Source: Micromonospora andamanensis (GTDB lineage: Bacteria; Actinomycetota; Actinomycetes; Mycobacteriales; Micromonosporaceae). Taken from it: DNA of 64,000 nucleotides. The notes under the pieces were generated by a model. It did no database searches. It was not told where the DNA came from and saw only the letters and a program-made list of their open reading frames with translations. The first letter of the stretch is position 1; every line of letters starts with the position of its first letter. Made by a program: the position numbers and the translations under genes. The DNA lies in contig NZ_BOOZ01000018.1 in NCBI RefSeq assembly GCF_016863495.1, positions 1 through 64,000 of the forward strand, written 5' to 3'. Of the stretch, positions 22,305-39,602 are shown in pieces.

Positions 22305-22456
22305 CGCCTGCCGTCGCCCTCTCGCTCGTACGCGCGGGCAGGGAGCTGGGCCGGGTGGCCACGGGCAGGCAGCGGAATCCGGGTACGGCACAGCCGCCCC
22401 GGCCGGGACGCGCGCACGCCGGAGCCCGGCGAGGCACACGGCCCCTTTCCGTCCCG

Positions 22457-22627
22457 CGCGCTGTCTCCCATCCGGACTGTCTGGGCGCGGACGAGCCGCC
22501 CCCAACCGTCGGCCCCGGATTCTCACCAGGTCCACCGGGCGGACGAACCGCTCCCGGGTCGCGGGCTTACCACGGTCGGGCCGTGGATCACCGCCGGTTC
22601 GGAATTACACCGAGTCCCGCCAGCGCG
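22457..22627 (-). ncRNA. FMN riboswitch (RFN element)
   Basis: On the minus strand the leader shows the RFN hallmarks in order: CTCGGTGTAATTCCGAACC, GGCGGTGATCCACG, CCTGGTGAGAATCCGG, GCCGACGGTT and AGTCCGGATGGGAGACAGC. The P1 helix is CGCGCTG at 22621-22627 with CAGCGCG at 22457-22463. It lies about 150 nt before the ribD start, leaving room for an expression platform. FMN binding should lower expression of ribD-ribE-ribBA-ribH. Confidence 0.96.
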
Positions 22628-22685
22628 TGGTGGGTACTGAGCAAAGTCTTACACGTCCGGCGGGGCGCCGGGCCACCCGGGCGAG

Positions 22686-31277: not shown

Positions 31278-32546
31278 CTACGGACTGCCGACAGCCGTGC
31301 CGGCCGGCGCACCACCCTGCGCCGCCGGCAGCGGTTCACCCACGGTGACCGGCAGGTGGTCGTACCCGCGCAGGGTCAACCGGATCCGCCGCCGGGGCGG
31401 CCCGGCCGGCGCCAGCCCGGGCAGCCGGCGCAGCAGCGCCGGGAAGGCGACCTGAGCCTCCAGCCGGGCCAGCCCCGCGCCCAGGCAGTAGTGCGGCCCG
31501 GCGCCGAAGGAGAGCGGGTTCAGCTGGGCCCGCCACGGGTCGAACCGCTCCGGCCGTGGGTATCGCCGGGGGTCGCGGTTGGCCGCGCCGAGCAGCAGCA
31601 GGATCCAACTGCCGGCGGGCACCTCGACCCCGTCGAGCCGCACGGCCTCGCCTGTGGTGCGGGTGGTCAGCTGCACCGGCGAGTCGAAGCGGAGCAGTTC
31701 GTCCACGTACGCCGGGGCGTGCTGCGGGTGGTGCCGCAGCACGTCGGCGGCGCGGCTGTGGGCCAGCAGCACGGCCAGCCCGTTGCCGAGCAGGTTGGTG
31801 GTGGTCTCGAAGCCCGCGACGAGCAGGATCACCAGGTTCGCCAGCAGTTCCTCGCCGGAGAGCCGGTCACCGGCGTCGTGCGCCTGCACCAGGGCGGTGG
31901 TCAGGTCGTCGGCCGGTCGCCGACGACGGGCGGCCACCAGGTCGGTGAAGTAGTCGCGCAGCTCGGCGGCGCCGGCATCGGCCACGGCCAGCTCCGCCGG
32001 GGTGATCTCGGGCTCCAGCACCCCGGTCAGGTCGGCCGTCCAGCGCCGGAACAGCGGCCGGTCGGTGGCGGGGACGCCGAGCAGTTCGCAGATCACCCCG
32101 ACCGGCAACGGGTAGGCGAACTCGGCCATGAAGTCCACCGGAGCGTCGCCCCGGCCGGTCGCCGCCATCGCGTCGATCAGCTCGTCGGTCTGCGCCGTGA
32201 CCACGTCGCGCATGGCGCCGATCCGTTTTGGGGTGAAGGCTCCGGCGGCGAGCCGGCGCATCCGGCTGTGGTCGGGCGGGTTGGTCCGCAGCATGGACCG
32301 GGCGATCGAGGACACCGCCGGGCTCTCCCGCCAGGTCGGCAGGAGTCCGTCGCGCAGATGGTCGTCGAGCACCCGGACCCGGGCGTCGCGGAGCAGTTCG
32401 TCGGCCTCGGCGTGGCCGGTGACCGCGTACAGACCCGGACCGGCCGGCACGATCGGCCCGTGGGCCCGTAACCGCTCGTACGCCGGATACGGGTCGACCC
32501 GTCCTTCGGGTGACATGAGCGACGCGAGCGCCTCAGCGGCGTCCAT
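31278..32546 (-). CDS. Cytochrome P450
   Basis: The 422-residue soluble P450 has the I-helix motif LLVAGFETTTN (residues 243-251), the K-helix ExxR at Glu283/Arg286 (VDELLRFDS) and the heme loop FGAGPHYCLGAGLARLE with the axial ligand Cys354. It should hydroxylate or epoxidise a small hydrophobic substrate with electrons from a ferredoxin. No ferredoxin, reductase or biosynthetic cluster is adjacent, so it is an orphan and its substrate cannot be told. AGGAGG lies 4 nt before the ATG. Confidence 0.95.
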   Translation of the reverse strand: MDAAEALASLMSPEGRVDPYPAYERLRAHGPIVPAGPGLYAVTGHAEADELLRDARVRVLDDHLRDGLLPTWRESPAVSSIARSMLRTNPPDHSRMRRLAAGAFTPKRIGAMRDVVTAQTDELIDAMAATGRGDAPVDFMAEFAYPLPVGVICELLGVPATDRPLFRRWTADLTGVLEPEITPAELAVADAGAAELRDYFTDLVAARRRRPADDLTTALVQAHDAGDRLSGEELLANLVILLVAGFETTTNLLGNGLAVLLAHSRAADVLRHHPQHAPAYVDELLRFDSPVQLTTRTTGEAVRLDGVEVPAGSWILLLLGAANRDPRRYPRPERFDPWRAQLNPLSFGAGPHYCLGAGLARLEAQVAFPALLRRLPGLAPAGPPRRRIRLTLRGYDHLPVTVGEPLPAAQGGAPAGTAVGSP

Positions 32547-32633
32547 CTGACCTCCTGGGTGTCCGGGAGGCTCCATCATGCCCGGGCAGCGCCATCGCGG
32601 GCGGCACCCGCCGCCGCCCATCCGGCAGCGGGC

Positions 32634-33614
32634 TCAGCCGGCGGGGCTCTCCCCGGCCAGCACCGCGTCGCCGGCGAGCAGGGCATGCTCGGGCAGCGGC
32701 AGGTGGATGTCGTGGGCTGCCGCCCAGTCGTGGACCAGGCTGGGGTGGGTCTGCGCGACGAAGTAGTCCATCGCGCTCACCCCGCCGACCACCGGCTCCT
32801 CGACCTCGGCGACCAGCCGGCCCGGCACCAGCCGGAAGCCGTTGCGCAGCGCGGCGCTGAGCCGTCGGTGCCCGTTGACCACGAAGAAGTACTCGCCGGT
32901 GTACCCGATCTCCAGTGGCTCCAGGCCGGTCTCACCGGCCGCGGCGACCTCGGCGGTGAAGGTCGAGTCCCACAGGCCGCGCAGGCCGGCGACGTCCTCG
33001 GTCGGGTAGACGCGACCGGGATCGAGCAGCAGCAACGGCGGGGCGCCGCGCAGCACCTCCGGCGCGAGCCGTCCCTCGTACGCGTCGACGATGCGCTCGA
33101 TCACCTCGTCGGCGGGTGCCCGGGTGGTGTCGCAGATCAGGTCGTAGTTGCGCAACCTGGCCTTGTCCACGCCGTAGCGGATCAGGAACCGGCCGCGCTC
33201 GCTCTCGCTGCGTTCCCGGAGCTTGGCCTTCGCCTCCTCCAGCGAGGTGTAGCTCTCGGCCGGCCCGGAGGGACGCAGCAGGACGCGGCGGGCCGCCTCA
33301 CCCGGCTCGGTGATCATGTGCACCTTTAGCGCGTCGGTGAAGAAGTGCCAGGCCAGCCGGGAGTCCATGACCAGGCTCTCACCGGAGGCGGCGATGTCCC
33401 GCTGGAGCTGGTCGACATAGCCGTCGACGGCCTGGTCCAGCTCAGCGTGCAGGTTCAGCTGGAGCGCTGTCATCTGCCGCTCCTGGGCCATCTGCCGGTA
33501 GAGGTCGCCGACGCTGACCCGGCGCAGGCCGAGCCGTTTGGCGATCTCGACCGAAACGGTGCTCTTGCCGCTGCCGAGGTCACCGTTGAAGACGATCGAC
33601 TGACGAACGGTCAC
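32634..33614 (-). CDS. CMP-kinase-like P-loop protein fused to a ParB/sulfiredoxin-like domain
   Basis: The N-terminal part (residues 1-180) is a small nucleoside-monophosphate-kinase fold: Walker A GDLGSGKST at 11-19, RVSVGDLYRQMAQER at 32-46, LVMDSRLAWHFFTDA, and LRNYDLICDTTRAPADEVIE near the end, like the archaeal-type cytidylate kinase. Residues about 200-270 read LDPGRVYPTEDVAGLRGLW, LEPLEIGYTGEYFFVVNGHR and RLSAALRNGFRLVPGRLVAE, the pattern of ParB/sulfiredoxin-fold domains (PTE, then NGHRRLSAAL). This combination is unusual. A GTG start with GGGGTGG upstream gives 326 residues. Possible roles are a small-molecule kinase or DNA-linked regulation. Domain calls are from motif reading. Confidence 0.75.
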   Translation of the reverse strand: MTVRQSIVFNGDLGSGKSTVSVEIAKRLGLRRVSVGDLYRQMAQERQMTALQLNLHAELDQAVDGYVDQLQRDIAASGESLVMDSRLAWHFFTDALKVHMITEPGEAARRVLLRPSGPAESYTSLEEAKAKLRERSESERGRFLIRYGVDKARLRNYDLICDTTRAPADEVIERIVDAYEGRLAPEVLRGAPPLLLLDPGRVYPTEDVAGLRGLWDSTFTAEVAAAGETGLEPLEIGYTGEYFFVVNGHRRLSAALRNGFRLVPGRLVAEVEEPVVGGVSAMDYFVAQTHPSLVHDWAAAHDIHLPLPEHALLAGDAVLAGESPAG

Positions 33615-33882: not shown

Positions 33883-35904
33883 TCAGAACAAGGCGAGCGG
33901 ATCGACCTGGAGGCGTACCGGGTCGGCCGCCTTACGGGCGCTGCGGACCCCGGCCGCTGCGTGCAGCGCGTCGGCCATCGCGGCGGCGCGGGCCCTCGGC
34001 ACCCGCACCAGCATCCGTTCCCGCTCTCCGTCGGCCGGTACCGGACCGAGCAGTTCCGTCCCGTCGGGCAGGCGCGCCTGCGCCAACAGGTCGGCGACCG
34101 CGTCCGGCAGGCCGGTCACGCTGGCCATCCGCATCGCCGGGGGGAAACCCAGCTCCCGCCGTTCGGCCAGTTCCCGGGCGGCGAACCAGCCGGCGTCCCA
34201 GCGCAGCAGCGCCTGCACCGGCGCGAGCGCACCGTCGGCGACCACCACCACCCGGCCCCCCTCGGCCGCCGGCCGGGCCAGTGCCGCAGCCGCCGTCCAG
34301 CGGCGCAGCGCCTCCTCACCGGCCCGCAGGTCGGCCCGGGTGAGCAGGGCCCAGGAGTCCAGCAGCAGCACCGCGCCGTAGCCGCCGGCCGCCAGCGGCT
34401 CGGCGCCCGGGGTGGCGATCACCAGGCCCGGCCCGTCGGGCACGTCGGCGAGCACCTCCTCCCGGCCGGAGGTGCGCACCGGCACCCCCGGAAAGGCCCT
34501 ACCGAGTTCCTCGGCGGTCCGCCGGGCACCGGTGACCGAGGCCCGCAGCCGCCGCCCGCCACACTGCGGGCAGGCGTACGCGGCGGCGATCCGGGCGCAC
34601 CAGCGGCAGGCCGGCGACCCACCCGCCGACGGCAGCGCGAGCGGGCCGGCGCAGTGCGGGCAGCGGGCCGGGGTCCGACATTCGGCGCAGGCCACCGAGG
34701 GCAGGTAGCCGCGCCGGGGCACCTGGACCAGGACCGGCAGTTCCGCGCGCAGCGCCTCCCGGGCGGCCGTCCAGGCCAGGCTCGGCAGCCGGGCGGTCGC
34801 CGCGCCGGGATCGCGGGCCAGTTGCGGGTCGTCGCCGGTCGGCACGATCGCGGGGGTACGCGCCCGCAGCACCGCCCGGTCGGCGATCACCTCACGGGCC
34901 CAGCCGGTCTCCACAAGCAGTTGCGCCTCGGCGGTACGGGCGTAGCCGCCGACGAGTGCGCCCGCCTCCGCCAACTGGGCGCGGGTGAGCAGCACCTCAC
35001 GGGCGTGCGGGTAGGGGGCCCGCGGCTCGGCGTGCAGATCGTCACCGTCGTCCCAGATCGCCACCAGCCCCAGCCTGTCGACCGGGGCGAACATGGCGGC
35101 CCGGGTGCCGATCACCACCGGAGCTTCGGCACGCCGGGCGGTCAGGAAGGCGCGGTAACGCCGCGCCGGGCCGAGCGCGGCCGACAGGCAGACGTGCCGG
35201 CCCGGCCCGAGCCGGGCGGTGAGCGCGGCATCGAGCCGGTCGAGATCCCGCCCGTCGGCAACCACCACAAGCGCACCCCGGCCGGCGGCCACCGTGGCGG
35301 CGACGGCTGTGGCGTAGCGGGCCGCCCAGTCCTCCCCCGGCAGTGCCGACCAGACCGCCCGGGGGGAACGCCCGTCGGCAAGGGCCCGCAGCAACGCCGG
35401 CCCGGCCGGGTAGTCGCGCCAACCTTCCGGCTCCGGCTCCGGCTCCGGCTGCGGCTCCGGCTGCGGCTGCGGCTGCGGCTGCGGCTCAAGTTCCGGCGAC
35501 CCGGCGGGCGGGGCCGCGGTCATGATCTCCTTTTCCACCCGGGCGTGCCGGGGTGGCACCGCCAGCCGCAGCACGTCGGCCAGGCTGCCGGCGTACCTGT
35601 CGGCGACGACCCGGGCCAGCCGGGCCACCTCCGGGGCGAGCACCGGCACCGGAGAGACCACCTTGTCCAGGTAGGCGAGCCGGGGATGCTCGGAGCGTTC
35701 GGCCCGTTCCAGCAGCCAACCGTCGACGAGCTGGCCGGCGAAGCGCACCTTCACCCGTACGCCGGGCACGGCGTCGGCGGAGAGCGCCTGGGGAACCAGG
35801 TAGTCGAAGGGGCGGTCCAGATGGGCCAGCGGCACGTCGACGCAGACCCGGGCGACCGGCGACCTGTCAGCGGGCCGCCGGTCGTCACGCCGGGTGGTTG
35901 TCAG
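33883..35904 (-). CDS. priA: Primosomal protein N' (PriA), probably helicase-inactive
   Basis: PriA restarts replication at stalled forks. The C-terminal half has the zinc-binding cysteines ([31 protein letters not shown]) and the N-terminal DNA-binding region [20 protein letters not shown]. The helicase motifs are lost: where GxGKT is expected the sequence is [14 protein letters not shown], and the DEEH box reads [11 protein letters not shown]. Actinobacterial PriA proteins are known to lack helicase motifs, so this is normal for the clade. A (Glu/Gln)-Pro repeat sits near residue 145. No ATG or GTG precedes the domain; a CTG overlapping the metK stop is the only candidate, so the start is unsure. 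Confidence 0.85.
35429..35488. repeat. Hexanucleotide tandem repeat inside priA
   Basis: GGCTCC or GGCTGC repeats nine times with a tenth partial unit; on the coding strand it specifies alternating Glu-Pro and Gln-Pro. Six-base units keep the frame whatever the copy number, so length variation between strains is likely. It lies between the DNA-binding and former helicase parts. Confidence 0.9.
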
Positions 35905-37094
35905 GCTCCCGCGGCCGACTTGAGGTCGGCGGCACGGTCGGTGGACTCCCAGGTCAGGTCGGGCAGTTCGCGGCCGAAGTGGCCGTAGGCGGCGGTCTGC
36001 GCGTAGATCGGCCGCAGCAGGTGCAGGTCCCGGATGATCGCGGCCGGACGCAGGTCGAAGATCTCGGTGACCGCCTTCTCGATCGAGGCCACCGGCACCG
36101 TCTCGGTACCGAAGGTCTCGATGAACAGGCTCACCGGGTGTGCCTTGCCGATCGCGTACGCGACCTGCACCTCGCACCGCTCCGCGAGCCCGGCGGCCAC
36201 CACGTTCTTGGCCACCCACCGCATCGCGTACGCGGCCGACCTGTCGACCTTCGACGGGTCCTTGCCGGAGAACGCCCCACCGCCGTGGCGGGCGTACCCG
36301 CCGTAGGTGTCCACGATGATCTTCCGCCCGGTCAGGCCCGCGTCGCCCATCGGACCACCGATCTCGAACCGGCCGGTCGGATTGACCAGGAGCCGGTAGC
36401 CCTCGGTGTCCAGGCCGAGGCTCTCCAGCTCGGGAGCGATGACGTGGTCCCGCACGTCCGGGGTGAGCAGCGACTCCAGCGAGATGTCGGCGGCGTGCTG
36501 GCTGGAGACCACCACCGTGTTGAGGCGTACCGGCCGCAGCCCGTCGTACTCGATGGTGACCTGCGTCTTGCCGTCCGGGCGCAGGTAGGGCACCGTGCCG
36601 TCCTTGCGTACCGCGGAGAGCCGGCGGGCCAGCCGGTGCGCGAGCGCGATCGGCAGCGGCATCAGCTCGGGCGTCTCGGAGCAGGCGAACCCGAACATCA
36701 TGCCCTGGTCACCGGCGCCCTGCGCGTCCAACGCGCTCTCCGACGCCCCGGTACGCAGCTCGAACGCGTTGTCCACGCCCTGCGCGATGTCCGGCGACTG
36801 GGAACCGATCGAGACGCTCACCCCGCACGACGCCCCGTCGAAACCCTTCTTCGACGAGTCGTACCCGATGCCCAGGATCGTCTCCCGCACGATCGTCGGG
36901 ATGTCGGCGTACGCCTTTGTCGTCACCTCACCGGCGACGTGCACCTGGCCGGTGGTGATCAGGGTCTCCACAGCCACCCGGCTGTGCGGATCCTGCGTCA
37001 GAAGGGCATCGAGGATGCCGTCGCTGATCTGATCGGCGATCTTGTCCGGGTGGCCTTCCGTGACCGATTCGGACGTGAAGAGGCGGCGTGTCAC
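35901..37094 (-). CDS. metK: S-adenosylmethionine synthetase
   Basis: MetK makes SAM from methionine and ATP. The 397-residue protein has the family signatures [40 protein letters not shown] and the P-loop-like [19 protein letters not shown]. The GTG start has TAGGAG 4 nt upstream; the upstream in-frame stretch lacks homology. A -10 element TACACT lies about 35 bp before it. No SAM riboswitch was seen. Its stop overlaps the proposed priA start. Confidence 0.98.
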
Positions 37095-38408: not shown

Positions 38409-38672
38409 TTACGGCTGGTCGGTCGGCTCAGCGGTGAGCAGGCCCGCGTTGATCTCGCGCATCGCGATGGAGAGCGGCTTCTCCTGGGGAGTGGTCTCGA
38501 CGAGCGGGCCGACGTACTCCAGCAGACCCTCACCGAGCTGGCTGTAGTAGGCGTTGACCTGGCGGGCGCGCTTGGCCGCGAAAATGACAAGCGCGTACTT
38601 CGACGTCGTCTTCTCCAGGAGCTCGTCGATCGGCGGGTTGGTGATGCCTTCGGGGTTGGCGATGGATCCCAC
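38409..38672 (-). CDS. rpoZ: RNA polymerase omega subunit
   Basis: The 87-residue protein starts [20 protein letters not shown] and continues [20 protein letters not shown], the conserved omega helix that latches the beta-prime subunit. The C-terminal part [18 protein letters not shown] is typical of actinobacteria. The GTG start follows AGAGG at about 8 nt. It lies between gmk and coaBC as expected. Confidence 0.97.
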
Positions 38673-38725: not shown

Positions 38726-39259
38726 TCAACCGCGCGGACGCGGTCGGGCCGGAGCCAGGAAGGAAGAACCGATGAATCCTACCAGTTCGTCCACGACACG
38801 CTCGATGCGGTCGTGCGACACGCTGAGGTCGAAGGCGGCCACGACCGGCGGACCCGGCAGTCGACCGGGCGGATGGAGTAGGACGAGTCGCGCTCGCGGC
38901 CACCCGGCCCGGACCAGCAACGCCCCGTCGAGGTCCAGCGCGAGCAGGACCGGCTGCCCGGCGGCGAGCCGGCGGCGCAGCGGGCTGATCTCCGTACCGC
39001 GCCGGTGAGTACCGAGCCGACTCCACTCCAGCAGCTCGCCGGCGGCGAGCCGGCGGTCGAACTCCTCGGGCGTGACGAAGTGCCGGTGGACGCCGTCCAG
39101 TTCGCCGCCCCGGCGAGGCCGGGTGGTGACCGTGACGGGCGTCCACACTGACGGAGAACGCGCCCGGACCAGCTCGACGACACTCTCCCTGCCGGCGCCG
39201 GATGGGCCAGCCAGGACAGTGAGCCGAGCCGCCGGGCGCGCCTCGTCATCCAAGCTCAC
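38726..39259 (-). CDS. gmk: Degenerate guanylate-kinase-like protein
   Basis: The position between mihF and rpoZ and the start [20 protein letters not shown] mark this as the gmk locus. However, the Walker A lysine is replaced by Arg24 followed by Glu (GPSGAGRES instead of GxxGxGKS/T). GMP-binding features are partly kept ([37 protein letters not shown]), but the LID segment with its catalytic arginines is largely missing and the protein is 177 residues rather than about 200. Catalysis is doubtful. I believe similar forms occur in Micromonosporaceae, so a second gmk elsewhere, or a changed function, is likely. Confidence 0.8.
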
Positions 39260-39284: not shown

Positions 39285-39602
39285 TCAGTTGGCGGCGAAC
39301 TCCCCAAGCAGGGCCTTGCGCTGCTGCTCGCCGAGGCCACGCAGGCGACGGCTGTCGGCGATCTTGAGCTTCTCCATGATCTGAGTAGCCCGGATCTTGC
39401 CGATGCCCGGCATGGCCTGCAGCACGGCCGACACCTTGAGCTTGCCGACGACATCGTCGGACTCGGCCCGCTCAAGAACGGCTCCGAGGGTGGTCTTGCC
39501 CTGCTTGAGCTGCTCCTTCAGCTCGGCACGGGCTTTGCGGATCTCCGCAGCCTTCTCCAGCGCGGCTGCGCGCTGCTCGGGGGTCAGTGACGGGAGCGGC
39601 AC
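39285..39602 (-). CDS. mihF: Actinobacterial integration host factor MihF
   Basis: The 105-residue protein is a nucleoid-associated DNA-binding protein with the typical start MPLPSLTPEQRAAALEKAAE and the helix-two-turn-helix MPGIGKIRATQIMEKLKIAD. In Streptomyces the orthologue sIHF affects chromosome compaction and development. The start codon is GTG. It has its own good promoter upstream and heads mihF-gmk-rpoZ-coaBC. Confidence 0.96.
   Translation of the reverse strand: MPLPSLTPEQRAAALEKAAEIRKARAELKEQLKQGKTTLGAVLERAESDDVVGKLKVSAVLQAMPGIGKIRATQIMEKLKIADSRRLRGLGEQQRKALLGEFAAN

Follow-up and report, generated by a model that had tools for sequence, protein, structure and literature searches.

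The 64,000-nucleotide stretch of Micromonospora andamanensis DNA analysed here (the window) carries a gene, hereafter KIN, in which a P-loop nucleotide kinase is fused to a C-terminal tail resembling the ParB/sulfiredoxin (Srx) superfamily, and the locus raises the question of what such a fusion is for. An earlier note on this DNA had suggested that the link between a CMP-kinase-like domain and a ParB/Srx-like domain could itself be a new enzyme or switch. Our analysis points instead to the kinase. We conclude that KIN most likely took over from the bacterial guanylate kinase, Gmk, as GMP kinase by non-orthologous displacement, with a probability of about 0.86; GMP is inferred as the substrate from the genomic pattern, and the predicted reaction is ATP + GMP -> ADP + GDP. 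This connection to guanylate kinase is not visible from the sequence alone. Features of the locus are collected in Table 1.

Table 1. Coordinates of KIN, its domains and motifs, and the relic gmk region in the window.
Feature	Position	Strand	Basis
KIN, kinase-ParB/Srx fusion gene; 326 aa, begins with GTG at 33614 and stops at 32634	32634..33614	(-)	ORF translation, Pfam/NCBIfam
P-loop NMP-kinase domain, KIN residues 1-182	33069..33614	(-)	Pfam/NCBIfam, VIA structure match, dN/dS
Walker A GDLGSGKS, KIN residues 11-18, intact	33561..33584	(-)	sequence and alignment
Family signature DSRLAWHF, KIN residues 84-91	33342..33365	(-)	locus counts, tree split
Probable ParB/sulfiredoxin-fold domain, KIN residues 183-326	32637..33068	(-)	phage-ParB profiles, structure comparison
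GHRR, KIN residues 248-251, in keeping with GxxR, the Box II / P motif of ParB-type folds	32862..32873	(-)	locus counts
Cytochrome P450 (CYP) between KIN and def	31278-32621	(-)	present in some Micromonospora relatives, absent from others
priA-like gene directly upstream of KIN	33883..36219	(-)	PF17764; priA-KIN order in relatives
rpoZ, downstream border of gmk slot, start approximate	38409..38670	(-)	named from its sequence
Relic guanylate kinase gene (gmk), 177 aa	38726..39259	(-)	PF00625 4e-17, profile positions 2-123 of 182 only
Broken P-loop of relic gmk, GPSGAGRES, lysine -> arginine	39182..39208	(-)	sequence
mihF (H2TH domain), upstream border of gmk slot	39285..39602	(-)	translation, Pfam, order in relatives

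The kinase domain has the hallmarks of a functional enzyme. Within its P-loop, GDLGSGKST (residues 11-19), the Walker A residues G11, G14, S15, G16 and K17 are invariant across eight aligned rows, and the signature DSRLAW[HFY]F is present in 139/139 loci of the family (some genomes counted twice). Pfam matches include AAA_18 (2e-16), Cytidylate_kin2 (1.9e-11) and Cytidylate_kin (8.9e-10), and the cut-offs of two CMP-kinase models are exceeded (PF13189, 44.9 bits with a cut-off of 28; PF02224, 39.1 bits with a cut-off of 26). NCBIfam TIGR02173 matches at 3.1e-23 and 82.6 bits, below its equivalog cut-off of 102.1, and the Gmk family PF00625 is absent from the 10 Pfam families that match KIN at E 1. 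The best PDB match of the full-length model (pLDDT 66) is a CMP kinase (VIA; Z 12.3, 152 residues, 3.8 A), and the structure-match rows shown cover the kinase part. Pfam, NCBIfam and structure thus bear out the CMP-kinase-like P-loop kinase recognized in the earlier note. Median dN/dS of the kinase part (window versus 51-80 loci) is 0.136; in the same comparison mihF, metK, fmt, coaBC, def and pyrF fall at 0.03-0.19 and CYP at 0.36. The kinase part is under constraint typical of a working enzyme. That KIN is a pseudogene was ruled out, with an internal stop in 0/80 loci; across the family, an in-frame TGA occurs in 4 of 113 matching genomes (G172, G189, G237 and G293), the last three of which have an intact Gmk.

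Closest named models and structures being CMP kinases, KIN might be taken for a second CMP (or dCMP) kinase. We consider this very improbable. Canonical Cmk, at 197-243 bits, was found in 28/28 genomes checked, including six from a distant order that have KIN and no Gmk match (see below), and its retention indicates that KIN is not a spare Cmk. The host itself encodes canonical Cmk elsewhere in its genome (231 bits), and KIN is not its sole CMP kinase candidate. The missed TIGR02173 cut-off and the differing signature motif also speak against this assignment.

A gene for Gmk is present in the window, as a relic. It is the sole PF00625 match over cut-off in the host genome, and its match ends at position 123 of the 182-position profile, so that the LID is missing; the two LID arginines of Gmk are described as stabilizing the transition state (PMC5686395). 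Of 83 loci with KIN, 68 yielded a comparable relic, and the other 15 gave no gmk-like ORF in the DNA fetched. The Walker A lysine is lost in 64 of these 68 relics and kept in four, and the LID motif is found in none (0/68). By contrast, intact reference loci, defined as the best-scoring PF00625 matches, have the lysine in 26/26 and the LID motif in 25/26. The relic reading frame is open in 64/65 loci, with an internal stop in one, and its dN/dS of 0.418 is below 1. The relic may therefore keep some role, for example a non-catalytic one or translational coupling.

Presence of KIN and loss of Gmk coincide across the host's family. KIN was found in the host and in 35/36 genomes of its genus (no match in G010), and in 113 of 250 family genomes, representing 17/44 genera, all 250 of which were searched for both KIN and PF00625. 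With Gmk scored as decayed when its best E was weaker than 1e-34, or as absent, 92 genomes fell into the decayed or absent class and 90 of them carry KIN. The two exceptions are G121, a 77% complete assembly in which neither gene was found, and G115, which is without KIN and whose Gmk shows up as just two matches (E 9e-25). Gmk is intact in the remaining 158 genomes, 135 without KIN and 23 with it (one a fragment). Fisher's test gives 3.9e-43 for this association and 2.2e-8 for that in the distant order described below; both tests ignore shared descent, and such p-values overstate independence. For this reason, contrasts within genera and occupancy of the gmk slot carry the weight. In genus g45, one genome has KIN and a decayed gmk, whereas two others lack KIN and have an intact Gmk. 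A single genome of 22 sampled from genus g33 has KIN and a decaying gmk; the 21 others have no KIN and an intact gene. All seven genomes sampled from genus g66 carry KIN and have no Gmk match at E 1e-5.

Coexistence of KIN with intact Gmk in 23 genomes means that KIN need not be the GMP kinase everywhere. KIN alignments reach residue 309 or beyond in all 90 genomes that have KIN and have lost Gmk (G172, with its in-frame TGA, among them). In the 23 with intact Gmk, the alignment ends at or before residue 288 in 19 and reaches residues 302-310 in four; because the alignments are local, divergence of the tail would produce such an end as well.

The same pattern is seen in a distant actinobacterial order. 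KIN is present in 6/59 of its genomes, and the same six have no Gmk match at E 1e-5, the criterion of absence used for this order (one genome, G1184, with a partial Gmk match of 1.4e-33 over positions 3-147 and no KIN, was counted as having Gmk). The six belong to three families, f84 (3/9), f86 (1/9) and f106 (2/8), each of which also holds members with Gmk. In 6/6, KIN is flanked by mihF and rpoZ, and coaBC, priA and def come next. This is the usual position of gmk: mihF, gmk and rpoZ occur together in 35/36 intact gmk loci from both clades, and among 10 intact loci of the distant order gmk-rpoZ-coaBC is found in 10 and mihF-gmk in 9. KIN of f86 and f106 is on the strand of the operon and its open frame codes for the kinase only, without a ParB-like tail, whereas that of f84 is on the opposite strand and has a degenerate tail.

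In Micromonospora, KIN is outside the gmk slot, 5.1 kb from gmk and behind priA. The window block reads pyrF-mihF-gmk-rpoZ-coaBC-metK-priA upstream of KIN, with def-fmt downstream. The usual order in Micromonospora and close genera is priA-KIN-(CYP)-def-fmt, in which CYP comes and goes; in one exceptional locus (L120) KIN immediately precedes the pyrF of this block. An operon partner for KIN was rejected after a survey of neighbours in other genomes, as suggested by the earlier note: 17 loci of other genera are without any neighbour from the window, and among these loci none recurs widely. Elsewhere in the window, an FMN riboswitch at 22456-22628 (-) is the sole Rfam match over the gathering score (RF00050, 69.5 bits, E 1.1e-13).

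We propose the following course of events. KIN would derive from a CMP-kinase-like P-loop branch, its nucleotide-site motif D[SA]R[LM][AG]W standing against E[SG]RLA[AG] in a sister clade. Once KIN was present, gmk would have become dispensable. In Micromonospora and its allies, gmk would then have lost its catalytic lysine and LID and stayed as a relic; in the distant order it would have disappeared, with KIN taking its operon slot. The ParB/Srx-like tail would be accessory to this function.

The fold of the tail was approached through profile and structure comparisons. PTE and VVNGHRRLSAALRNG are located in the C-terminal part of KIN. Searched alone, the tail matches no Pfam family, PF02195 included, at a threshold as loose as E 10; PF02195 was seen in 2/12 relatives at E 0.23 or weaker, and ParB was not among the PDB profile matches of the tail. 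With phage-family profiles at E up to 10, 7/12 relatives match one ParB-like profile (best 1.6e-4), which window KIN matches weakly (E 0.035). The tail of a homologue from Parabacteroides matches another phage ParB-like profile (1.2e-4), and that of a Rhodococcus homologue gave no match in Pfam or PHROGs. Modelled alone, the tail yielded a weak model (pLDDT 50). Its Foldseek matches are weak singly (best E 0.034, none at 0.001); by name, 42/50 of the matches listed are ParB, Srx, SerK, SbnI, PadC, Noc or KorB and 6 are Atu1540, which we take to be a ParB/Srx-fold protein. Of the VIA matches listed, 30/32 are so named, joined by Atu1540 and 1vk1, and the best Z is 5.0, where a clear match would need 8. 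Strand-helix order in the tail of the full-length model is that expected for a ParB/Srx fold, and hhalign aligned the tail with the right part of the ParB encoded by the host, although the match is weak (probability 9.5%). A ParB/Srx fold is likely for the tail on these comparisons. The domain named in the earlier note thus holds as a probable fold, through weak phage profile matches and structure comparison, but has no Pfam or PDB ParB profile behind it; in the fold search, ParB/Srx names dominate the matches listed, all of which are weak.

Could the tail be the point of the fusion, serving as a nucleotide switch built on a ParB/Srx domain or as a second enzyme (CTPase or serine kinase), in either case coupled to the kinase, with Gmk replacement secondary? 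The probable fold would suit such a device, and ParB-type folds, whose P motif is GxxR, are described as binding CTP, ATP or GTP (PMC12704722). GxxR is kept in 125/125 loci of family genomes that lost Gmk (some genomes counted twice) and in 10/14 of those with Gmk intact. Against this stand the kinase-only proteins of f86 and f106, which occupy the gmk slot, and two f84 proteins (L167 and L168) that lack the GxxR arginine in genomes without Gmk. Median dN/dS of the tail is 0.423, far from the 0.136 of the kinase and about equal to that of relic gmk. The glutamate of PTE, which we assume to be equivalent to the SerK Box I glutamate E30, is not conserved: across relatives the residue at its position is E, Q, T, G, R or K. 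Some PDB entries among the structure matches carry SerK E30 mutants in their titles. On this evidence a switch or second enzyme is unlikely to be the primary function, and the idea of the domain link as a new enzyme or switch finds no support here. The tail is fast-evolving and loosely constrained although GxxR is kept, and, since it is also absent from some Gmk replacers, it is accessory. Its role is most likely that of a regulatory or stabilizing nucleotide-binding module, perhaps a nucleotide sensor.

At E 1e-10 KIN was found in 44/298 genomes of the order sample and 3/296 of the class sample, none outside the host's own family. The phylum sample gave matches in 9/396 genomes: two from the host's genus, three from f84 and four archaeal-type kinase-only relatives. 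Relatives spanning both kinase and tail are encoded by plasmids of Rhodococcus and Parabacteroides distasonis, and also in f84. A search for KIN relatives in phages (tblastn) and viral contigs, as evidence of phage or viral origin, found none; the Parabacteroides query gave four partial matches to phage or viral sequence, of at most 73 residues. On the Parabacteroides plasmid (L162, 8615-13622) the KIN homologue belongs to a gene run with an AAA_28 P-loop protein, an unknown protein, a radical SAM/SPASM protein, a dehydrogenase and hpt. The hpt product makes GMP and IMP. Its place in the same run is consistent with a GMP role for KIN, and the run is possibly a modified guanine nucleotide pathway. 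The Rhodococcus plasmid homologues (L159 and L160) are near genes for dsRBD-fold and universal stress proteins, with an Hsp20-type gene in L159, a neighbourhood that to our eye resembles a dormancy regulon; the locus of Rhodococcus oxybenzonivorans (L161) was left aside because its translation was out of frame.

Plasmid copies, together with the coexistence of KIN and intact Gmk, would also fit a protein that does something else, such as nucleotide signalling or repair, with a broad-specificity kinase phosphorylating GMP in genomes without Gmk. Such a protein would not be expected to coincide with Gmk loss in two distant clades or to sit in the gmk operon slot in every replacer of one of them, and we regard the idea as highly improbable. 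A different proposal concerns why KIN spread and is compatible with Gmk replacement: KIN may be a GMP kinase that is insensitive to drugs or linked to defence and that was selected for discriminating against GMP-analogue antibiotics or chain-terminating nucleotides (viperin products). Its kinase domain matches PADLOC pVip-kinase at 5.9e-22, the plasmid copies are suggestive, and in E. coli resistance to the GTP-mimic prodrug ADG is reported to map to gsk and gmk (PMC9239236). Yet KIN contains no viperin domain, the radical SAM neighbour in Parabacteroides matches pVip models only in part, and Micromonospora carries KIN on its chromosome as an ordinary gene; we regard this proposal as a speculative one. 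KIN as a defence system in its own right was rejected, since the only matches of this kind were those of its kinase domain to pVip-kinase and VakA and that of a neighbour to part of pVip.

A 35-row tree separates 28 kinases with D[SA]R[LM][AG]W from 7 archaeal-CMPK-like kinases with E[SG]RLA[AG] (support 100/99). Three actinobacterial genomes with an archaeal-type kinase-only relative (G815, G1121 and G1128) have no PF00625 match over cut-off and keep Cmk, and a fourth (G916) has Gmk; the loci of the first three (L173, L170 and L171) have a GSGTST or GTGTTT P-loop in which the Walker lysine is replaced. On a haloarchaeal plasmid, a kinase of the ESRLAG type adjoins a gene for IMP dehydrogenase (L221, 2953-5071), a hint of an archaeal GMP kinase. 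The archaeal guanylate kinase gene was reported as unidentified in 2014 (PMC4177761), and the sister clade of KIN is a candidate for it. It is conceivable, if doubtful, that KIN is a second, independently evolved bacterial guanylate kinase, sufficiently mobile that it displaced Gmk several times, with a sister clade that includes the archaeal guanylate kinase and a tail that acts as a sensor tuning GTP supply.

Gmk is treated as conserved and essential in bacteria, and is called essential in two reports (PMC5686395, PMC9239236). The actinomycetes Micromonospora, Salinispora and Plantactinospora, a group from soil and sea, appear to be without a working copy, keeping only a relic. The literature searched yielded no description of such a Gmk displacement, and nothing on guanylate kinase together with Micromonosporaceae. 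Conserved replacement by KIN would be a precedent for displacement of an essential metabolic enzyme, in one clade within its own operon slot.

Among known systems, archaeal-type (d)CMP kinases (TIGR02173 / Cytidylate_kin2, PF13189) share with KIN the kinase fold, P-loop and kinase-domain length. They differ in that KIN has the D[SA]R[LM][AG]W motif, a sub-cut-off TIGR02173 score and a C-terminal tail, and is tied to Gmk loss in genomes that, where checked, keep canonical Cmk. Gmk (PF00625) resembles KIN in predicted reaction and, in the distant order, in the slot between mihF and rpoZ, but KIN belongs to a different P-loop kinase branch and has no PF00625 match at E 1. Members of the ParB/sulfiredoxin superfamily (ParB CTPase, Srx, SerK, SbnI, PadC, Noc) resemble the tail in strand and helix order, GxxR and structure matches; unlike them, the tail is below PF02195 detection, has no HTH or dimerization domain and is fused to a nucleotide kinase. 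ParB-CTPase fusions were surveyed in PNAS in 2025 (PMC12704722), and a kinase-ParB fusion of this kind does not appear in the available portion of that survey. The viperin-kinase fusion (PADLOC pVip-kinase) has a similar kinase domain, matched over profile positions 3-173 of 474 only, but KIN has neither a radical-SAM domain nor a match to a Pfam radical-SAM family. In Pseudomonas putida, thymidylate kinase is described as replaced by another kinase (PMC10653934). That case parallels KIN, as described, in that another kinase makes up for an essential NMP kinase gene that was lost, and differs in the enzyme, in the nucleotide and in having no ParB-like tail.
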